From Acidaminococcus intestini DSM 21505 (lineage in GTDB: Bacteria > Bacillota > Negativicutes > Acidaminococcales > Acidaminococcaceae), in the NCBI RefSeq assembly GCF_000425045.1, contig NZ_AULA01000017.1, forward strand, positions 1 through 48,311: a stretch of DNA of 48,311 nucleotides. The letters are read 5' to 3'. The notes beneath the pieces were generated by a model. The model did no database searches. It was not told the origin of the DNA and saw nothing but the letters and a program-made list of their open reading frames with translations. Made by a program: the position numbers and the translations under genes. This document shows, piece by piece, positions 3,504 through 11,042 of this stretch. Numbering within the stretch: the stretch's first letter is position 1; each line of letters opens with the position of its first letter.

Positions 3504-3627
3504 AATCAAGGCTCCTTTCAAGATCATCTCTTAGGTCTATCATAGCACTTTTAAGAAAAAGGCGGTAGTGAGCCGTATCTTTTTAAAGGCCCTTTATCTG
3601 TCGGAGCCGGGCGGTACACCCAAAAAG

Positions 3628-3710
3628 CACCGCATGGATTCTATGTTCCATGCGGTGCCGCCTGAGCCCAAAGCAGGGCTTATTTTCAATTGGTGGAGAT
3701 GAGGGGAGTC
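3628..3710 (-). repeat. Displaced copy of tmRNA 3' end plus terminator (candidate attachment site, left)
   Basis: 83 bases that match 10960-11042 with differences only in the hairpin loop. It contains the last 20 bases of tmRNA including the CCA end, the small GC hairpin behind it and the 11-bp terminator stem CACCGCATGGA/TCCATGCGGTG, followed on the minus strand by a T-run (3622-3626). There is no rest of a tmRNA next to it. The 3' end of ssrA is a classic integration target, so a second 3' fragment in direct orientation is what an integrated element leaves behind. Confidence 0.75.
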
Positions 3711-3743
3711 TCTTAACAAAGTGGCTACGTTTCTAACTATTTA

Positions 3744-3788
3744 TGACTAAAATGATTTTGGTGCGCACTTAGTGCGCAATTTTAGTCA
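3744..3788. repeat. Nested palindrome at the end of the small basic-protein gene
   Basis: Outer arms TGACTAAAAT (3744-3753) and ATTTTAGTCA (3779-3788) are perfect complements. Inside sit TGCGCAC (3762-3768) and GTGCGCA (3772-3778) around a three-base loop. The left side carries eight extra bases (3754-3761). It overlaps the stop codon of the 3782-3991 gene. It may act as a transcription terminator in both directions or as a recombination/transposon end. Confidence 0.6.
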
Positions 3789-3991
3789 ATGCTGCTTTTT
3801 CCAAGCTTTTCTACTGCGACCTTGCAAGCTTTAATTTTCCCGGATTTTATAAGCTTGGCAAATCTGTAGATGAGATCCCATTCATCATCAAAAGCCCTGA
3901 CCTGATGCTGTTTTCTTGTTCCTTCTGGGCTAACAGAACCTTTAGGACGCCCAGCACCTGGGCGCATTCCCCCTCTTTTTGATTGAGTCAT
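3782..3991 (-). CDS. Small basic DNA-binding-like protein, function unknown
   Basis: A 69-residue basic protein. The N-terminus RGGMRPGAGRPKGS (residues 6-19) is an AT-hook-like stretch common in small proteins of phages and mobile elements. The second half, VRAFDDEWDLIYRFAKLIK, looks like a short strand plus helix as in ribbon-helix-helix proteins. It lies just inside the left tmRNA-derived repeat. I cannot assign a function; a role in the mobile segment is inferred from position. The ATG at 3991 follows an AGAAGAG sequence. Confidence 0.5.
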   Translation of the reverse strand: MTQSKRGGMRPGAGRPKGSVSPEGTRKQHQVRAFDDEWDLIYRFAKLIKSGKIKACKVAVEKLGKSSID

Positions 3992-4039
3992 AATTTAGCT
4001 CTTCTGATTTGTATTGCTCGTAAAACTACGTAAACAGCC

Positions 4040-4375
4040 GTGGGAATCTGCTACGCCATGAAGGGAGAAATGAATAAGCTATATGCGATAACAGACTACC
4101 AGAAGGCTGTCGAGAGGTGGAAACGATGGTTTAAGGCGGCCAAGGCGAGCGTGATACCGGCCTTGGTCCGGTTCGCCAAGCTAAAGGAAAAGCGAATCGA
4201 TGGTCTGGCAAATCACGCCAAATGCCCTATTAACACAAGCCGATTGGAAGGGTACAACATGATTAAGGTTGCCAAACGGAATGCATATGGGTACAAGAAC
4301 GACAGATACTTTTTTACCTTGATTCGGTACTTGTCTTTACCTGCGTATGATTTGGCATCCCCCAAAAATACGTGA
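4040..4375 (+). pseudogene. C-terminal fragment of an ISL3-family transposase
   Basis: About 110 residues that align by eye with the tail of ISL3 (IS204/IS1001) DDE transposases: ERWKRWFKAAKAS, then INTSRLEGYNMIKVAKRN carrying the EG-N-IK signature that contains the final catalytic Glu, then YGYKNDRYFFTLIRY. A full-length enzyme is roughly 400 residues and the catalytic N-terminal half is absent, so this is a remnant. The only start codon is a GTG at 4040, and I see no terminal inverted repeats. It sits inside the tmRNA-flanked segment. Confidence 0.75.
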
Positions 4376-4451
4376 AGAATCGTTTTAAAATGGATTTTTA
4401 GTAAAAAGATAGTTACTTTACCAAATCAGGAATTACAATGGACTATGGTCG

Positions 4452-5432
4452 TTATTCGATTTTGAGGATCATTTTTCCCTTTGCCAAACCATTAATGATT
4501 TCGTTATGTGCTTGAGCAGCATCCTTCAAGAGAAGCTGTTTTCCAACTTTTGCACGAACAGCGCCGCTTTGCATAAAAGCACGCAATGCAAACAGGCTTT
4601 CCCGATATTCATTGGCCGGAGCATTCCACAGAGCCATGCCTAGGATAGTAGATTCATTGGCCATGGCCAGGCGCGGATTGATTTCAATCGTGCCACGATT
4701 GCCTACGACTACGATACGGCCATATTTTGCAATCACCTTCAAATCGGTCTGCAGATTGACATTTGCCAGGAATTCAATAATGACGTCCGGGCCTTTCCCC
4801 TTGGTTAATTCCATCAATTCATCCTGATTGTCTGCTTTGAGGTGATAGATTGCATAATCAGCTCCAAAGGAACGGACGATGTCCAAGCCTTCAGGAGTCG
4901 TGCCTGTACCAATGACGATGGCACCTACAGCTTTTGCCATCTGAACAGCTAACGATCCTACACCGCCTTCAGCCCCATGGATCATTACAATTTCGCCGGC
5001 CTTGATGTGAGCACGATGGAACAAAGCGCGGTATGCAGCCATTGCCGGAATACCAAAGGATGCGCCTTCTTCAAAGGAAATGAAATCCGGCAGCTTGTGG
5101 ACCGAATCAGCATCGCAAACGACTTTCTGCGCATAGGTACCAGTATTGCGTTTTGCCAACAGAGCTGCAACGAAAACGCGGTCGCCGACTTTCACATGCG
5201 TGACACCTGCACCTACTTTTTCTATTACTCCAGCGCCGTCATAGCCGGGCGTATAAGGCAGTTCCGGTTTATAGAAATTATATGTGCCTGTACGGACATA
5301 GGTTTCATTTGGATTGACGCCGCAAAATGCAAGCTTAATCAGGACTTCGTTAGCTTCCGGTACCGGGTCAGGTACATCAACATATTTCAGTACTTCCGGT
5401 CCGCCGAATTCTTTCATTACGATAGCTTTCAT
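4452..5432 (-). CDS. NADPH:quinone oxidoreductase-like protein (zinc-independent MDR family)
   Basis: A 326-residue medium-chain dehydrogenase/reductase. The N-terminal GroES-like domain has MKAIVMKEFGGPEVL and GYDGAGVIEKVG near residues 62-75. The nucleotide-binding domain has HGAEGGVGSLAVQMAK near residue 145, the AxxGxxG NADPH loop of quinone reductases. Zinc-ligand cysteines of alcohol dehydrogenases are missing, as in QOR/zeta-crystallin. It probably reduces quinones or other alpha,beta-unsaturated carbonyls. It is the last gene of a minus-strand set PhzF-RidA-QOR, 39 bases after ridA, with AAAAAGGAAG ahead of the ATG. Base composition is visibly AT-richer than the flanking chromosome. 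Confidence 0.87.
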   Translation of the reverse strand: MKAIVMKEFGGPEVLKYVDVPDPVPEANEVLIKLAFCGVNPNETYVRTGTYNFYKPELPYTPGYDGAGVIEKVGAGVTHVKVGDRVFVAALLAKRNTGTYAQKVVCDADSVHKLPDFISFEEGASFGIPAMAAYRALFHRAHIKAGEIVMIHGAEGGVGSLAVQMAKAVGAIVIGTGTTPEGLDIVRSFGADYAIYHLKADNQDELMELTKGKGPDVIIEFLANVNLQTDLKVIAKYGRIVVVGNRGTIEINPRLAMANESTILGMALWNAPANEYRESLFALRAFMQSGAVRAKVGKQLLLKDAAQAHNEIINGLAKGKMILKIE

Positions 5433-5471
5433 GACAGGTTCTTCCTTTTTATACGGGTATTTAAAAGAATC

Positions 5472-5846
5472 TTATTTGATTTCAGCAATGGCTTCAATTT
5501 CACAGAGATAGCCAAGCGGCAACGCTACGACAGCCACGCAGGTGCGAGCCGGATGATGAGGGAAATACTTATTATATACTGTATTGAATTCATCAAAGTA
5601 TGCAATGTCTTTGAGAAAAACAGTGGTTTTCACGACATTTTTGCAGCTTGTGCCAGCCGCCTCAAGAATATTTTGGATATTTTTGCAAGCTTGTTCTGCC
5701 TGTTCCGTTACAGTATCACCGGCAGGTTGCGTACCACCAGGAAGCAGTCCGATCTGGCCTGCTGTAAATACGAGATTCCCCGTTACCATTGCCTGAGAAT
5801 ATGGTGCCTGCGGATCAGCGCCTTTATTTGTATAGATGCATTTCAT
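5472..5846 (-). CDS. ridA: RidA family enamine/imine deaminase
   Basis: A 124-residue RidA/YjgF/UK114 protein. These trimers hydrolyse reactive 2-aminoacrylate and related imines released by PLP enzymes. The hallmark PARTCVAV near residue 100 has the catalytic Arg, and CEIEAIAEI at the C-terminus supplies the conserved Glu. PQAPYSQA near residue 12 is also typical. GAGGAGG precedes the ATG. It lies 48 bases downstream of phzF and 39 bases upstream of the quinone reductase, so probably in one operon. Pairing with a PLP-domain regulator and PhzF suggests handling of amino-acid-derived imines or enamines. Confidence 0.93.
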   Translation of the reverse strand: MKCIYTNKGADPQAPYSQAMVTGNLVFTAGQIGLLPGGTQPAGDTVTEQAEQACKNIQNILEAAGTSCKNVVKTTVFLKDIAYFDEFNTVYNKYFPHHPARTCVAVVALPLGYLCEIEAIAEIK

Positions 5847-5894
5847 AATAGATAGCCTCCTCTGGATATGTTAGATATCGTACAAAATACTTGA

Positions 5895-6680
5895 TTAATG
5901 GATATTTAATTCGGCCGTGCTATAGAGCGTTACATGGCCGCTAATCTTAACTACATTACCTCCGTCACGGCAGTAAATCGTACCGGTGCGAGGCGACAGC
6001 TGATGATTGATTATCTCTTTTTTACCGAGACGCTGAGACCAGAGCGGAATCAACGAGCAGTTAGCAGAACCACAAACCGGATCTTCCGGAATACCGATAT
6101 TGGGGAAGAAAGTGCGGCTGACAAATTCACTGTCACTAGCTTGAGCCGTGATGAGGACACCTAGCTTATCGGTCATATGGGCAATAGCCTGATAATCGGG
6201 CTGGAAATTTTGGACCGTATCTGTATCTTTCGCTAAAATGATGAGATCGCGTGTCTGCCAAGCAGCTTCCGGTTTGAAGCCAAGGGCATCTTCCATTTCT
6301 TTGGTCACTGCAACTTTTTGGGGATGCCAGGATGGGAATTCAATTTCATACAATCCGCCTTCGCGAACGGTAATGACAATATCATCTTGATTGGCACGCA
6401 GATGGAATTCTTTCTTACCCGGTTCCACAAAATTTGCGAGGACAAACCCTGTACCCAATGTAGCATGGCCACACAAATCTACTTCTGATGTAGGTGTGAA
6501 AAAGCGGACACGATAAATGCCATCTACTTTATGCTTTACAAAAGCCGTTTCAGAAAGTCTATTTTCTGCAGCGATATTCGTCATGGTTTCATCTGTAGGG
6601 AATTCATCTACCAGGCAAACCCCTGCCGGATTACCTTTGAATAATTCTTCAGTAAACGCATCAACAACGTAGTACTTCAT
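5895..6680 (-). CDS. PhzF family isomerase/epimerase (island copy)
   Basis: A 261-residue diaminopimelate-epimerase-fold protein of the PhzF family. The signature MKYYVVDAFTEELFKGNPAGV opens the protein in part; ENRLSETAFV carries the catalytic Glu near residue 45, DLCGHATLG follows, and EDPVCGSANCSLIPLW is near residue 210. Members isomerise small cyclic or amino-acid-like metabolites and most are uncharacterised. A longer frame begins 30 codons earlier, but AGGAGG sits next to the ATGs at 6686 and 6680; I chose 6680 because the paralogue at 17202-17990 starts the same way. First gene of the phzF-ridA-QOR set. Confidence 0.9.
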   Translation of the reverse strand: MKYYVVDAFTEELFKGNPAGVCLVDEFPTDETMTNIAAENRLSETAFVKHKVDGIYRVRFFTPTSEVDLCGHATLGTGFVLANFVEPGKKEFHLRANQDDIVITVREGGLYEIEFPSWHPQKVAVTKEMEDALGFKPEAAWQTRDLIILAKDTDTVQNFQPDYQAIAHMTDKLGVLITAQASDSEFVSRTFFPNIGIPEDPVCGSANCSLIPLWSQRLGKKEIINHQLSPRTGTIYCRDGGNVVKISGHVTLYSTAELNIH

Positions 6681-6710
6681 ATTCATCAATCCTCCTTCTA
6701 CTTCGTTTGT

Positions 6711-6724
6711 TTCCCGATTGGGAA
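6711..6724. promoter_or_regulatory. Inverted repeat in the phzF leader
   Basis: TTCCC-GATT-GGGAA, perfect 5-bp arms, between the phzF promoter and its ribosome-binding site. It could be a regulator site or a small leader hairpin. Confidence 0.35.
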
Positions 6725-6745
6725 CCTGTTTATTTGATTTATTCA

Positions 6746-6774
6746 AGTATACTAGAGAGTCAATATTCATTCAA
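6746..6774 (-). promoter_or_regulatory. Promoter of the phzF-ridA-QOR operon
   Basis: Minus-strand -35 TTGAAT (6774-6769), 17-base spacer, -10 TATACT (6751-6746). It lies downstream of the mocR stop, so phzF need not depend on the mocR transcript. Confidence 0.65.
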
Positions 6775-6834
6775 TATTAAAATTGTGTGCAGTACGATTT
6801 AATAAATATATTTCAATTGATTTTTGCTTTTTCA

Positions 6835-8208
6835 TCATAATAGTTGACGCAGAATTTTCAGGCCTTCTCGTAACTCATCATACGTAGAAGGTACACAAAT
6901 ACCCAGTCTAGCCGCATGGACAGGCATATCTTTACCGACAGCAAATCGTTGTGAGCCATAGACATAGACGCCATGTTCCAAAGCAAGGTGCTCAAATTGC
7001 TCTCCGGACATATCTTCTGATAAAATCAACCAGCGATGGAGACATTCTTCCGTGCCACGCACATCATAGCCTTTTAAAATTTCATCAACAATCCCGTTGC
7101 GAATTTTCAACCCCTGGCGCCGTCGTTCAAGCAAGCCTTCAAATTTTTCTGAAACGATCATGCGCGATGCCAATTCCATTAATAACGCAGATGGAGATAA
7201 TTGAATCGCATATAAGGCGTTGCGCAAATTCTTAAAATATTTTTTAGGAGCCTTAATATAGGCTAAACGTAAAGCTGGAATCAGCGTTTTGGATAAACTG
7301 GCAAGAAAGATGGTTTGTTCCGGAGCCATATTGGCAATAGACTGATGAATGTGTGGAGAAAGCAGACAGTTAATGCCATCTTCTATTACCAGAAGATCCA
7401 GATCTCTGGCCAGGCGTGCAATCATTTTTCGGCAGGATAGTGGCATACTATGGGTCGTTGGATTCTGATAATCCGGCATGACATACAGACCGGTGATACC
7501 TTCATTGTGGTAGGCGTACTGAATTGCTTCAGCCGTAAATTCATTATTTTCCTGCCGAATAGGAACGAGATGAATGCCAATAAGCTTGGCAGCACTTTTT
7601 AGCCCTGGATACACAGTAGGTGCTGTACCAATACGATCACCAGGCCTGAAAAGCCCCGCTAGTACAGCATACGTTGCATTTTGGCCGCCGCTGGCGAAAA
7701 GGACATGATCAGCATCAGTATGGCATCCTGCCCGATCAAGTAATTTCACGGCCGCCTCTTTATGAAACAACATAGCAGAGTGATTATATTGCAACAGTCG
7801 TCCAAAATCATCTTCTTGTATCATTTTCTCCAAGAGCGTCACGACTTCATCCTGAGGAATTGTTTCCGGTGTAAGAGAACCCATATCTATCAGATAAGGC
7901 TTTTTTTTTGCAGGTGTATCGAAAATATTAGTCACCACATCGTACGCTACATACGTGCCACTTCCAACAGTACTAGTAAGCAGGCCTTTATTGGAGCAGA
8001 GTTTAAAAGCTCGTACTACTGTACTGACATTAATATCTAAAAAATCAGCTAATTCACGTTGTGGCGGCAGTTTAGTTCCTGGCAGCAAAACACCAGTAGC
8101 AATATCATTTTCAAGTTGTCTGGCTAACGAAATATACAATGGTTGATTGGTGCGGTTCAGTTGAGGCTTCCAGGACATATAATAGTTATCAAACGAATTA
8201 ATGGACAT
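6835..8208 (-). CDS. MocR/PdxR-type transcriptional regulator (GntR domain fused to aminotransferase fold)
   Basis: A 457-residue regulator. Residues about 20-90 form a GntR winged helix (PLYISLARQLENDIATG, then LPPQRELADFLDINVSTVVRAF). The rest is a class I aminotransferase fold that binds PLP as an effector sensor. MPDYQNPTTHSM and the probable PLP-lysine motif SLSKTLIPALRLAYIKAP are visible. The frame is open 31 codons further, but AAGGGGA before the ATG at 8208 fits better. It lies between the phzF operon and a divergent flavin reductase gene and is the obvious regulator of both. A perfect inverted repeat lies just after its own -10 box, which suggests autoregulation. Confidence 0.92.
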   Translation of the reverse strand: MSINSFDNYYMSWKPQLNRTNQPLYISLARQLENDIATGVLLPGTKLPPQRELADFLDINVSTVVRAFKLCSNKGLLTSTVGSGTYVAYDVVTNIFDTPAKKKPYLIDMGSLTPETIPQDEVVTLLEKMIQEDDFGRLLQYNHSAMLFHKEAAVKLLDRAGCHTDADHVLFASGGQNATYAVLAGLFRPGDRIGTAPTVYPGLKSAAKLIGIHLVPIRQENNEFTAEAIQYAYHNEGITGLYVMPDYQNPTTHSMPLSCRKMIARLARDLDLLVIEDGINCLLSPHIHQSIANMAPEQTIFLASLSKTLIPALRLAYIKAPKKYFKNLRNALYAIQLSPSALLMELASRMIVSEKFEGLLERRRQGLKIRNGIVDEILKGYDVRGTEECLHRWLILSEDMSGEQFEHLALEHGVYVYGSQRFAVGKDMPVHAARLGICVPSTYDELREGLKILRQLL

Positions 8209-8257
8209 AGGTATCGGTCCCCTTTCTGTCTGTTTTTTAACGTAAATAGTGAGTAAA

Positions 8258-8271
8258 GTAAATCCATTTAC
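8258..8271. promoter_or_regulatory. Candidate MocR operator
   Basis: GTAAAT-CC-ATTTAC, perfect 6-bp arms, placed immediately downstream of the mocR -10 box. The position would block mocR transcription when occupied. Confidence 0.5.
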
Positions 8272-8301
8272 ATTATATACGCGTAATTGTTTTACATACA
8301 A
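8272..8301 (-). promoter_or_regulatory. mocR promoter
   Basis: Minus strand -35 TTGTAT (8301-8296), 18-base spacer, -10 TATAAT (8277-8272). Confidence 0.6.
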
Positions 8302-8309
8302 TTTTATAA

Positions 8310-8338
8310 TTGAATGCAGTATATATTCATGATATCAT
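8310..8338 (+). promoter_or_regulatory. Promoter of the flavin reductase gene
   Basis: -35 TTGAAT (8310-8315), 17-base spacer, -10 TATCAT (8333-8338). The perfect palindrome ATGATATCAT spans the -10 box. Confidence 0.55.
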
Positions 8339-8386
8339 GAAAAAAATATAAAGAAAATATCCATAAAAAGAGAGGAAGAAAAGAGT

Positions 8387-8935
8387 ATGGGTAAAAAAAT
8401 TGTAGTTATCACATCCAGTTTTCGTAAAGATGGCAATAGTACCGCTCTTGCTGAAGCATTCATTGAAGAGGCTCAAAAAAAAGGTCACTCTGTCAAACGC
8501 TTCGATGCTGCCTATCTAAATATCGGTCCTTGTCATGGATGCGATACCTGCTTCAAGACGGGTAAAGCCTGCACCTTTGACGATGATTTCAATACGGTAG
8601 CACCTTATATTGAAGAAGCAGATGCTGTCATCCTCGCGACACCGACCTATTGGTTTTCCATACCTGGCAAAGTTAAATGCCTGATTGATAAACTCTATAG
8701 CTTCTGTGTTGGCAAAAAAGAAGCCATTGCCGGTAAAAAAGCTGGCCTGCTCTGCACTTGCCGGTCTCAGAGCACAAGCGACATGGAAGGTATCATCATG
8801 CCATACCATAAGGCCATTGACTATCTCGGATGGGAAAACATAGGCGAAATCCTTATTTCCTCTATGGATAAACCTGGCGAACTACAGCAAACTGCCGGAC
8901 CTGAACAAGCTCGAGCTCTGGCTGACCAACTGTAA
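8387..8935 (+). CDS. Flavodoxin-fold NAD(P)H-dependent FMN reductase / iron-sulfur flavoprotein-like
   Basis: A 182-residue flavodoxin-like protein. KIVVITSSFRKDGNSTALAE at the N-terminus is the FMN phosphate-binding loop; ATPTYWFSIPGKVKCLIDKL near residue 85 is the second flavin loop. GPCHGCDTCFKTGKACTFDDDF near residues 47-68 is the compact cysteine motif of iron-sulfur flavoproteins, although the classical arrangement is not complete. It probably transfers electrons from NAD(P)H to flavin or quinone-like substrates. It is transcribed divergently from mocR across 178 bases that hold both promoters. Ribosome-binding site AGAGAGGAAG precedes the ATG. Confidence 0.87.
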   Translation: MGKKIVVITSSFRKDGNSTALAEAFIEEAQKKGHSVKRFDAAYLNIGPCHGCDTCFKTGKACTFDDDFNTVAPYIEEADAVILATPTYWFSIPGKVKCLIDKLYSFCVGKKEAIAGKKAGLLCTCRSQSTSDMEGIIMPYHKAIDYLGWENIGEILISSMDKPGELQQTAGPEQARALADQL

Positions 8936-9058
8936 GGATGTACACACTACACCTTTGATCCTAAAAGATGGAGCTTTTTTAATGCTTAGTTTTGAGGTTA
9001 TTGTATTGATTCGTTCAGACTGCGCCAAAAAGGGAATGTGAAATAACAATCCCCAGAA

Positions 9059-10954
9059 ATACGAGTAGGAGGGATTTCTAAATAGAGATCCCGACCTCTC
9101 ACACCACCGTGCGTACCGTTCGAAGCGCGGCGGTTTCCTCGTTTTCACAAACTTATTTGTAATAGCTCGTCATGGTTATATAACCAGGGCGGGCTATTTC
9201 TTCGTTCGTAAGGAATGAGCTCAGCATAAGCGCCACTCTCCATAGTCCTTTTCGGCAACTTGCCAGTTCATGCACTTTCCATTCTGGAATTGCGTATTGG
9301 CGCATCATGCAGTACCTTGTTCGCACCTTCTTCCACTGTTTCCAGTAGATTGCCCGGATTTTCCGCCGTATCCATGTATCCACTTCCATGAGCAGCTGTT
9401 TCATGTCTATCAGCTTGAAATCATTGACCCATCCGTGGATGAACTGTTTCAGCCTGATGGGCCTTACCGCATTCGGAGTTAGTTTGTTGCGGTCTAAAAT
9501 GGCCCTCACCTTCTCCTTCATCTTTGCTGCGGATTTTGCATGCACACGAAAACGAAGTTTCCCTTTCCTCCTGTAGAATCCATATCCCAGGTATTTTACC
9601 CGGCTAATGTATGGAGCCGGCGTCTTTTCCCGATTCACTTTGAGGAACCGTTTCCTTTCTATGTATCGTGTTATGCTTTCCAAGGTCCTCTCTGCACTTC
9701 TCCTGCTTTTGCACAGTATCATGCATTCGTCGGCGTAACGGACAAATTTATGTTCTCGCCGTTCCAGTTCCTCGTCCAGTTCATTAAGCATCACGTTGCT
9801 TAATAGTGGGCTTAAGGGGCCTCCCTGTACAGCGCCTGTTTCGCTTCTCTCAAATATCCCGTGGTTCATGATTCCTGCATTCAGGTATTTGTGTATCAGT
9901 GAGATGACAGCTCCGTCCTTGATGCTTCTTGACAGGACTTCTACCAATTTACTCTGGTAGACATTGCCGAAGAATTTCTCCAAATCCATGTCCACCACAT
10001 AGACATATCCTGCATCTGCATAGGCCTTACACTGTTTCAGGGCGTCATGCGCTTTGCGTCCCGGCCGGAAGCCGAAACTGCTGTCTGAGAACTGCGGTTC
10101 ATATACCAGCGTCAGCTCTTGCGTAATCGCCTGCTGTATCACCGGTCCACAACCGTCGGGATTCCCAATTTACGGAATTTTCCTTTTTCTTCTTTGGGTA
10201 TTTCTACCCGTCGGACGGGTTTGAATTTATACTTCCCATCCCGTATCTGCTGTAAGAGTTCCAGTCGGTGCTCTCCAAGGTACGGTAGAAGTTCATCTAC
10301 ACTCATCTTGTCGACACCGCCTGATCCTTTGTTGGCCTTTACCCTGTGATACGCGGCATTCAGGTTGTCTCGCCTCAGGACTTGCCCCAACAAAGTGTCC
10401 GCTCACAAGTTTGCAATGATGTCGTTGTGTTCGGCACTCCTCACAGGGATAGGCGTTCCCGCATATCCTTGCCGCTTGGCAGCTGCTTTTCGCGGGCAAC
10501 CTTCTCTATGAAGTTTTCTGCTTTTAATGACCTCTTTTGACTCCCTTCACTAACTGATATTTCCTAAGATTCGGCCCTTCCTGGACGGTCTATAACCCGT
10601 CCAGTACGATGGCCTCTGCTGACTTCCTCACGATAAATCTTGTTTGGGCCACAGCTGCCATTTTCATGGCTCCGGCCCTATCCGTGAGGCCTCCCCGCGT
10701 AAGAACACACTCTTTCTCTCCACCCACCTGCCGCATCTACCCTTGGGGATTCCGAGTCATTATGGGACTTCAGTCTGTTTTACTCCCTTATCCATCCCGA
10801 ATTGGCCTTATGCGGTTTCTGTTCGTCAGGTCAGAGATTTGCCTGCACCTTCCTTCAGATTCCACCTCACGGTGTCGCTTTTGGTGTTCGGCTATGACTT
10901 ACTCGAACAGTCTAAGGACTTGCATCCTTAAGAGTGCCCCTATGCCGGGCGCAC
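9059..10954 (-). mobile_element. Group IIC-type intron inserted behind the tmRNA terminator
   Basis: The minus strand begins GTGCGCCCGGCATAGGG at 10954, the 5' end style of group IIC introns such as that of Oceanobacillus iheyensis. It carries a reverse-transcriptase frame, then a domain V at about 9136-9101 (AACCGCCGCGC, TTCG-like turn, CGGTACGCACGGTGG) and ends in a CTCCTACTCG stretch near 9059. The 5' splice junction lies directly after the 12-bp terminator hairpin and T-run of ssrA, the preferred target type of IIC introns. Length is about 1.9 kb. The encoded protein is broken, so the copy is probably immobile by itself; the RNA may still splice. Confidence 0.85.
9153..10545 (-). pseudogene. 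Group II intron reverse transcriptase/maturase, inactivated
   Basis: Recognisable from the N-terminal SLKAENFIEKVAREKQLPS through GIPTVVDR, FGFRPGRKAHDALKQ, AVQGGPLSPLLSN and the maturase tail. It has several lesions. A TGA at 10441-10443 stands where the family has a Gly codon (MRERLSL then GVPNTT). A frame change follows near 10393. A one-base loss near 10141 gives VVDR-stop instead of VVDRMIQQ. The active-site box reads YADE rather than YADD, and the FFD segment of motif A reads FFG. The two longest surviving pieces are 9153-10142 and 10139-10393. Together these argue for decay, not one sequencing error. Confidence 0.88.
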
Positions 10955-10989
10955 AAAAACACCGCATGGATTGATTCATCCATGCGGTG
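10955..10989 (-). terminator. tmRNA terminator, target of the intron
   Basis: Perfect 12-bp stem CACCGCATGGAT/ATCCATGCGGTG (10960-10971 and 10978-10989) with a six-base loop. On the minus strand it is followed by TTTTT (10959-10955) and then directly by the intron. Confidence 0.85.
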
Positions 10990-11042
10990 CCGCCTGAGCC
11001 CAAAGCAGGGCTTATTTTCAATTGGTGGAGATGAGGGGAGTC
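10960..11042 (-). repeat. tmRNA 3' end plus terminator (candidate attachment site, right)
   Basis: Partner of the repeat at 3628-3710, same orientation and same 83-base length, with five differences clustered in the hairpin loop. It overlaps the 3' 20 bases of the intact tmRNA. The segment between the two copies is about 7.2 kb. Confidence 0.75.

Follow-up and report, generated by a model that had tools for sequence, protein, structure and literature searches.

A decayed group IIC intron abutting the ssrA terminator of Acidaminococcus intestini, at the edge of an island segment

Introduction

Group IIC introns insert at terminators (in a passage of PMC4424553), and part of PMC3522654 places both class C introns that were examined in Enterobacteriales behind terminators. 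The same portion of PMC4424553 describes most bacterial group II copies as truncated or inactive, and an excerpt of PMC7161350 states that lariat splicing of IIC introns needs their protein. For genomic islands, a section of PMC4383910 describes the usual sign as a regenerated gene accompanied by a displaced 3' end. A partial literature search returned no title that describes a group II intron in this position behind ssrA.

Here we analyze a window (the whole 48,311-nt stretch of Acidaminococcus intestini DSM 21505 DNA) in which a preliminary description had placed a group IIC intron immediately after the terminator hairpin of ssrA, inside an island attachment repeat. That description called the combination unusual and suggested that, should read-through transcripts be spliced, it could alter termination or 3' processing of tmRNA.

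Results

The intron and its junction with the terminator are made up of the following features:

11369-11023, minus strand: ssrA (tmRNA), tag AEDSYALAA (ARAGORN; Rfam RF00023, 153 bits)
10960-10989, minus strand: 12-bp terminator hairpin 3' of ssrA (fold and sequence)
10955-10959, minus strand: T-run after the hairpin, five T (sequence)
10954-9059, minus strand: decayed group IIC intron (RF02001, RF01998; RF00029 weak; relatives aligned end to end)
10778-10781, minus strand: EBS1 (AAAA), pairing with IBS1 TTTT at 10955-10958 (alignment and pairing analysis)
10139-10393, minus strand: N-terminal piece of the broken intron-encoded protein (TIGR04416 match, tblastn)
9153-10142, minus strand: C-terminal piece, with reverse transcriptase and maturase domains (PF00078, PF08388)
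9103-9134, minus strand: domain V, with uncompensated changes compared with relatives (RF00029, alignment)

The trailer between the mature ssrA end and the intron is 68 nt long and closes with the hairpin and T5. The hairpin is present in both the minimum free energy (-34.5 kcal/mol) and centroid (-33.7 kcal/mol) folds of 11030-10950, and none of 200 shuffles of this 81-nt stretch folded as well. The intron lies in sense orientation to ssrA, both being on the minus strand, and its 5' end (GTGCGCCCGG) directly abuts the T-run, with a first base at 10954 and a terminal GTGCG that conforms to the GUGYG of IIC introns. Two Rfam models of the intron core match on the strand of ssrA and in the correct order: RF02001 at 10876-10704 (131 bits) and RF01998 at 10645-10574 (45 bits). 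The domain V/VI model RF00029 spans 9135-9059 end to end, scoring 25.8 bits where the gathering score is 40. The 3' terminus reads CTCGTAT in the window intron and CTCGAT in five aligned relatives, an extra base that leaves the 3' boundary at 9059 certain to about 1 nt. The placement of a group IIC intron behind the ssrA terminator is thus borne out by the ARAGORN and Rfam tmRNA calls, the two core models and the hairpin fold, and the abutment on the 12-bp hairpin and its T-run holds to the base. The covariance-model check that had been proposed succeeds for the core and falls short of the gathering score for RF00029.

To place this junction within the intron family, we compared the sequences upstream of the readable 5' ends. 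Of 18 family 5' ends, 17, among them that of the window intron, lie behind a hairpin whose tail is rich in T; the same holds for 80 of 1050 random positions. The count leaves aside L071, L073, L077 and L082, which have no readable 5' end, and the truncated C2 copy, and C3 entered it at a point about 3 nt upstream of where it truly starts. The one 5' end that fails (L079) has a strong hairpin and 4 T in its tail, where 5 are required, while L070 counts among the 17 despite a very weak hairpin (-2.5 kcal/mol). The earlier statement that IIC introns choose intrinsic terminator hairpins describes their normal target, both in this family and in the portions of PMC4424553 and PMC3522654 cited above.

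The EBS1-IBS1 pairing tells the same story of a IIC insertion at a terminator hairpin. In the window, AAAA faces TTTT and all four positions pair, as retrohoming expects. EBS1 and IBS1 covary across introns: pairing is full in L070 (CAAA/TTTG), L072 (CTAA/TTAG) and L078 (TAAA/TTTA), and full with G-U pairs in L074 (TGTA/TGTA); three of four positions pair in L075, L081 and L085, and two of four in the C4 copy of the same genome. Overall, 55 of 60 positions are paired (G-U allowed) in 15 introns of 7 groups, a set that omits L080 (no EBS1), L073 (no 5' end) and L076 (not entered). When EBS1 sequences were reassigned among the sites, 4 of the 5040 arrangements, counting the true one, matched this total.

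The intron-encoded protein carries several separate lesions. A frameshift near 10142 puts its N- and C-terminal pieces in different frames, an in-frame TGA lies just upstream of the N-terminal piece, near 10405, and the protein stops a few codons early compared with relatives. The catalytic motif YADD is replaced by YADE near 9737, and FFD by FFG near 9968; GsI-IIC RT (6ar1, E 1.2e-84), the nearest PDB structure to the window reverse transcriptase, has YADD and FFD at the corresponding places. The domains found are PF00078 and PF08388 only, with no endonuclease domain, and the nearest solved structure agrees with class C; the C-terminal piece alone scores 278 bits with TIGR04416 (cut-off 300). 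Sequencing error as the sole cause was rejected, given the number of separate lesions and the TGA, which is also in copy C4. Judged by its reading frames, the intron-encoded protein is dead, and its lesions argue against self-splicing or retrohoming activity of the window copy.

The ribozyme also shows signs of decay. Domain V folds at -11.4 kcal/mol in the window and at -17.3 kcal/mol in five relatives, and its changes, on the 5' strand, are uncompensated. The same variant is found in C3, and with one further change in C2, while C4 is without it; copies bearing it must once have been mobile, and it is probably older than at least two of the insertions. Among 16 relative loci, RF00029 scores 43.7 to 52.5 bits in eight and gives no match at E 0.05 in the other eight. 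One of these eight, L072 (a relative with seven copies), was searched again in a focused short stretch and reached 43.7 bits, against 25.8 for the window by the same approach, so that its earlier miss was due to the filter; this re-search covered L072 only. The RF02001 core scores 131 bits in the window; the 12 relatives whose core is full-length reach 145 to 151 bits, and two relatives with internal deletions reach 59 and 42 bits. We conclude that the ribozyme core is probably impaired.

A maturase-domain search of the same genome recovered the window copy, a 5'-truncated C2 fragment and one sub-threshold match of another kind; no intact IIC protein was found in this search of an assembly of 55 contigs, in whose gaps an intact copy could lie. 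The sub-threshold match is a group II intron protein of 599 aa, intact and carrying an HNH domain (L109, 1129-2928; G000:C17 near 16708), adjoining a piece of a phage portal gene.

Used as a query against its own genome, the intron matched seven times, at four loci. Besides the window copy, these are C4 (14169-14934), where the copy has no ORF, C3, with a mini-relic behind rplT, and C2, where the copy is truncated at its 5' end. The C4 and C3 copies likewise follow terminators. In the C4 copy (L035, 270-1038; G000:C4) the stem of domain IV forms an almost perfect palindrome, more so than in copies with an ORF, and domain V carries a short duplication. Across the 9 genomes of the genus, matches occur in only one other (G006), as pieces of 43 to 194 bases. 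At the protein level, a match at E 1e-60 is found in only one other of 59 genomes of the family (42% identity), and matches at E 1e-100 in 10 of 300 genomes of the class including its own, the best other at 75% identity; one genome of the class (G225) holds seven copies with identical match scores. Viral contigs gave 0 matches to the junction and 0 to the ssrA-terminator-intron pattern, and among the 5000 plasmid matches listed for the intron-encoded protein all were below 60% identity.

No IIC core motif lies within 600 nt behind ssrA in any of the 8 congeners; in one (L014), two chance GTGCGGCC words occur at 221 and 277 behind ssrA, without the core motif. A genus-wide habit of IIC introns behind ssrA was rejected on this count and on the restriction of DNA matches to G006. 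Gene order round ssrA mostly differs in the congeners, G002 alone having the SBF transporter gene about 12 kb behind ssrA, and their ssrA trailers differ as well. Because this gene order is mostly not conserved, the ancestral empty site is not readable from congeners, and we reconstructed it from the joined flanks of the intron.

How rare is the combination? A single pattern search through 84,980 genomes, combining a tRNA- or tmRNA-like 3' end, a T-run and GTGYGNCC, yielded 24 stretches, eight of which have a IIC-like 5' end by eye (L048, L051, L054, L055, L062, L063, L066, L069). An Rfam-supported intron core is present in three of the eight (L062, L063, L066), the contig end cuts the intron after 12 bases in L055, and L048, L051, L054 and L069 are short stumps. 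Three follow a tmRNA gene or fragment (L055, L051, L062), three a tRNA (L048, L054, L066) and two neither, a count that does not suggest an ssrA preference. The tmRNA cases are Neobacillus dielmonensis (L055), with another IIC 5' end elsewhere in its genome; a deltaproteobacterium (L051), with an intron stump of about 21 nt; and the Salinisphaera MAG GH4 (L062), where an intron scoring 65 bits with RF02001 stands behind a displaced ssrA end. The combination is rare yet recurrent, and the count is a lower bound, since the pattern demands an encoded CCA end and limited spacing.

In Salinisphaera the displaced end is a 28-nt copy (RF00023 21.9 bits, gathering score 47), the whole ssrA is on another contig, and a phage-type integrase gene (PF00589, 73 bits) ends beside the displaced end. 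Integrase gene, displaced ssrA end, terminator and IIC intron together occupy 6523-7825 of L062, an independent ssrA-end case, and a second integrase piece lies at 9-569.

The four stumps (L048, L051, L054, L069) are palindromes of about 20 nt that resemble IIC 5' ends (e.g. GTGCGYCC-RGCAT-GGGCGCAC) directly behind terminators, three of them, by eye, faced by an A-run. They could be abortive insertions or deletion products. A 35-nt perfect palindrome of the same kind (L124, G335:C3:157838-157872) occurs in 1 of 398 genomes of the phylum.

The surroundings of the junction include a direct repeat (88 nt, 93% identity) and the segment that it bounds:

10955-11042, minus strand: proximal repeat copy, made up of the final 20 nt of ssrA with its trailer and terminator (repeat search)
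3623-3710, minus strand: distal repeat copy, a displaced ssrA 3' end with its own terminator (repeat search)
3711-9058, no strand: island segment (ORFs by Pfam/NCBIfam, congener comparison)

The segment carries an ISL3 transposase remnant, an alcohol dehydrogenase, a PhzF-like protein, a GntR/aminotransferase regulator and an FMN reductase. The ISL3-like remnant (4169-4379) has 88-91% copies at G000:C2, C23 and C8. None of the 8 congeners holds the block between the repeats: matches to the segment reach at most about 340 bases in four and are absent in the other four, and the distal repeat copy marks the far end of what is missing as a block. The locus thus has the regenerated gene, the displaced 3' fragment and the absence from relatives that are expected of an ssrA island. 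No integrase was detected among the six ORFs scanned (four main ORFs with Pfam, the ISL3 remnant with NCBIfam and Pfam, and one 69-aa ORF with NCBIfam), so that the label "attachment repeat" depends on the displaced ssrA end. On the usual reading of such islands (a section of PMC4383910), the repeat copy beside the whole ssrA would be the island-derived one. The intron is on the island side of this proximal repeat, at its edge. The description of the intron as lying inside the repeat holds only for the association with the repeat and island edge: a position within the repeat was rejected, since the repeat stops at 10955, where the intron starts.

Any effect on tmRNA appears unlikely, because the 5' splice site is 68 nt beyond the mature tmRNA end, behind an intact hairpin. 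The joined flanks give a T7 tract, of which the intron leaves T5; splicing of read-through RNA would restore the longer U-run (T5 to T7) and would not alter tmRNA. The remaining effect on tmRNA is predicted to be nil or slight, the T-run being shortened from 7 to 5. A simple terminator scan listed the distal terminator and not the proximal one, which fits the shortened T tract and is the only hint of any effect. The functional oddity that had been suspected is not upheld: terminators are the normal IIC target, other genomes have IIC sequence behind ssrA or a displaced ssrA end, the protein is broken and domain V weakened, and the splice site is 68 nt off.

Discussion

Taking together the architecture, the exact terminator junction, the EBS1-IBS1 match, the repeat and the lesions, all directly observed, we consider it highly probable that a IIC intron entered the T-run of the ssrA terminator by retrohoming, at the island-side repeat, and then decayed, with little effect on tmRNA. 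The intron would come from a family that is also present in other members of the same class. It would have reverse-spliced into the T-run, guided by the hairpin and IBS1; the target would have been the terminator copy on the island side of the 88-nt ssrA-end repeat, and decay would have followed insertion.

Other histories can be weighed against the same observations. The intron might still splice, alone or with a protein from elsewhere, and so modulate tmRNA read-through or 3' processing. Its D1-D4 core is fairly well preserved by comparison with full-length relatives, it is in sense to ssrA, and its domain V variant is common to C2 and C3, whose bearers once moved. However, the uncompensated changes that weaken domain V, the additional base at the 3' end and the failure to find an intact IIC protein in the genome all speak against splicing, and the position of the splice site, beyond both the mature 3' end and a strong hairpin, speaks against an effect on tmRNA; we regard continued activity of this kind as very improbable. 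Arrival with the island, already behind the terminator of its ssrA-end copy and so delivered behind the host ssrA, is a more serious alternative, if still somewhat unlikely. It accords with an intron on the island side of the proximal repeat, with a 3' flank of low-GC island DNA unlike the sequence behind the distal terminator, and with the Salinisphaera intron, likewise behind a displaced ssrA end beside an integrase gene. But three other diverged relics at other loci of the same genome make local insertion equally likely, no integrase was found in the window island, and the Salinisphaera copy is behind the displaced ssrA end, not the regenerated one.

The repeat itself might be a product of duplication or recombination rather than of an integrase, a reading favored by the failure to find an integrase among the ORFs scanned in the interval and by the extension of the repeat 68 nt beyond the gene end. 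We judge this unlikely, since the interval is absent as a block from all 8 congeners, islands are typically marked by a regenerated gene together with a displaced 3' end (part of PMC4383910), and the interval is low in GC (39-47%, compared with 44-55% in flank windows, a weak contrast because the ranges overlap). A broader and quite improbable proposal is that island ssrA-end repeats, which duplicate a strong terminator, act as repeated IIC landing pads, with introns travelling at the island edge to the ssrA of new hosts. On that view, the process would have taken place independently in the window and in Salinisphaera.

Retrohoming into the terminator followed by decay makes the window intron mainly a further case of the known IIC insertion at terminators, neat but ordinary. 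It suggests that the IIC terminator preference extends to the tmRNA gene, where landing behind the RNA should do little harm, and that, where an island duplicates the end of a gene, an intron target can be duplicated along with it. A single decayed copy leaves the general picture unchanged.

It is instructive to set the locus beside the systems that it most resembles. The window intron is like group IIC (bacterial class C) introns in its GUGYG 5' end, D1-D4 models, terminator target, EBS1-IBS1 pairing and a reverse transcriptase nearest to GsI-IIC RT (6ar1); it differs from typical members in its frameshifted protein, changed catalytic motifs and weak domain V, and in a target that is the ssrA terminator at an island edge. 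As in Islander-type ssrA islands, the block missing from congeners is bounded by a regenerated ssrA and a displaced 3' fragment; unlike them, the window has no detected integrase, and its repeat continues through the terminator. In the Salinisphaera MAG GH4, the intron lies behind the displaced copy, beside a PF00589 integrase, and has a lower core score (RF02001, 65 bits) than the window intron, but the two loci share the same order: an ssrA 3' end, a terminator, then a IIC 5' end.
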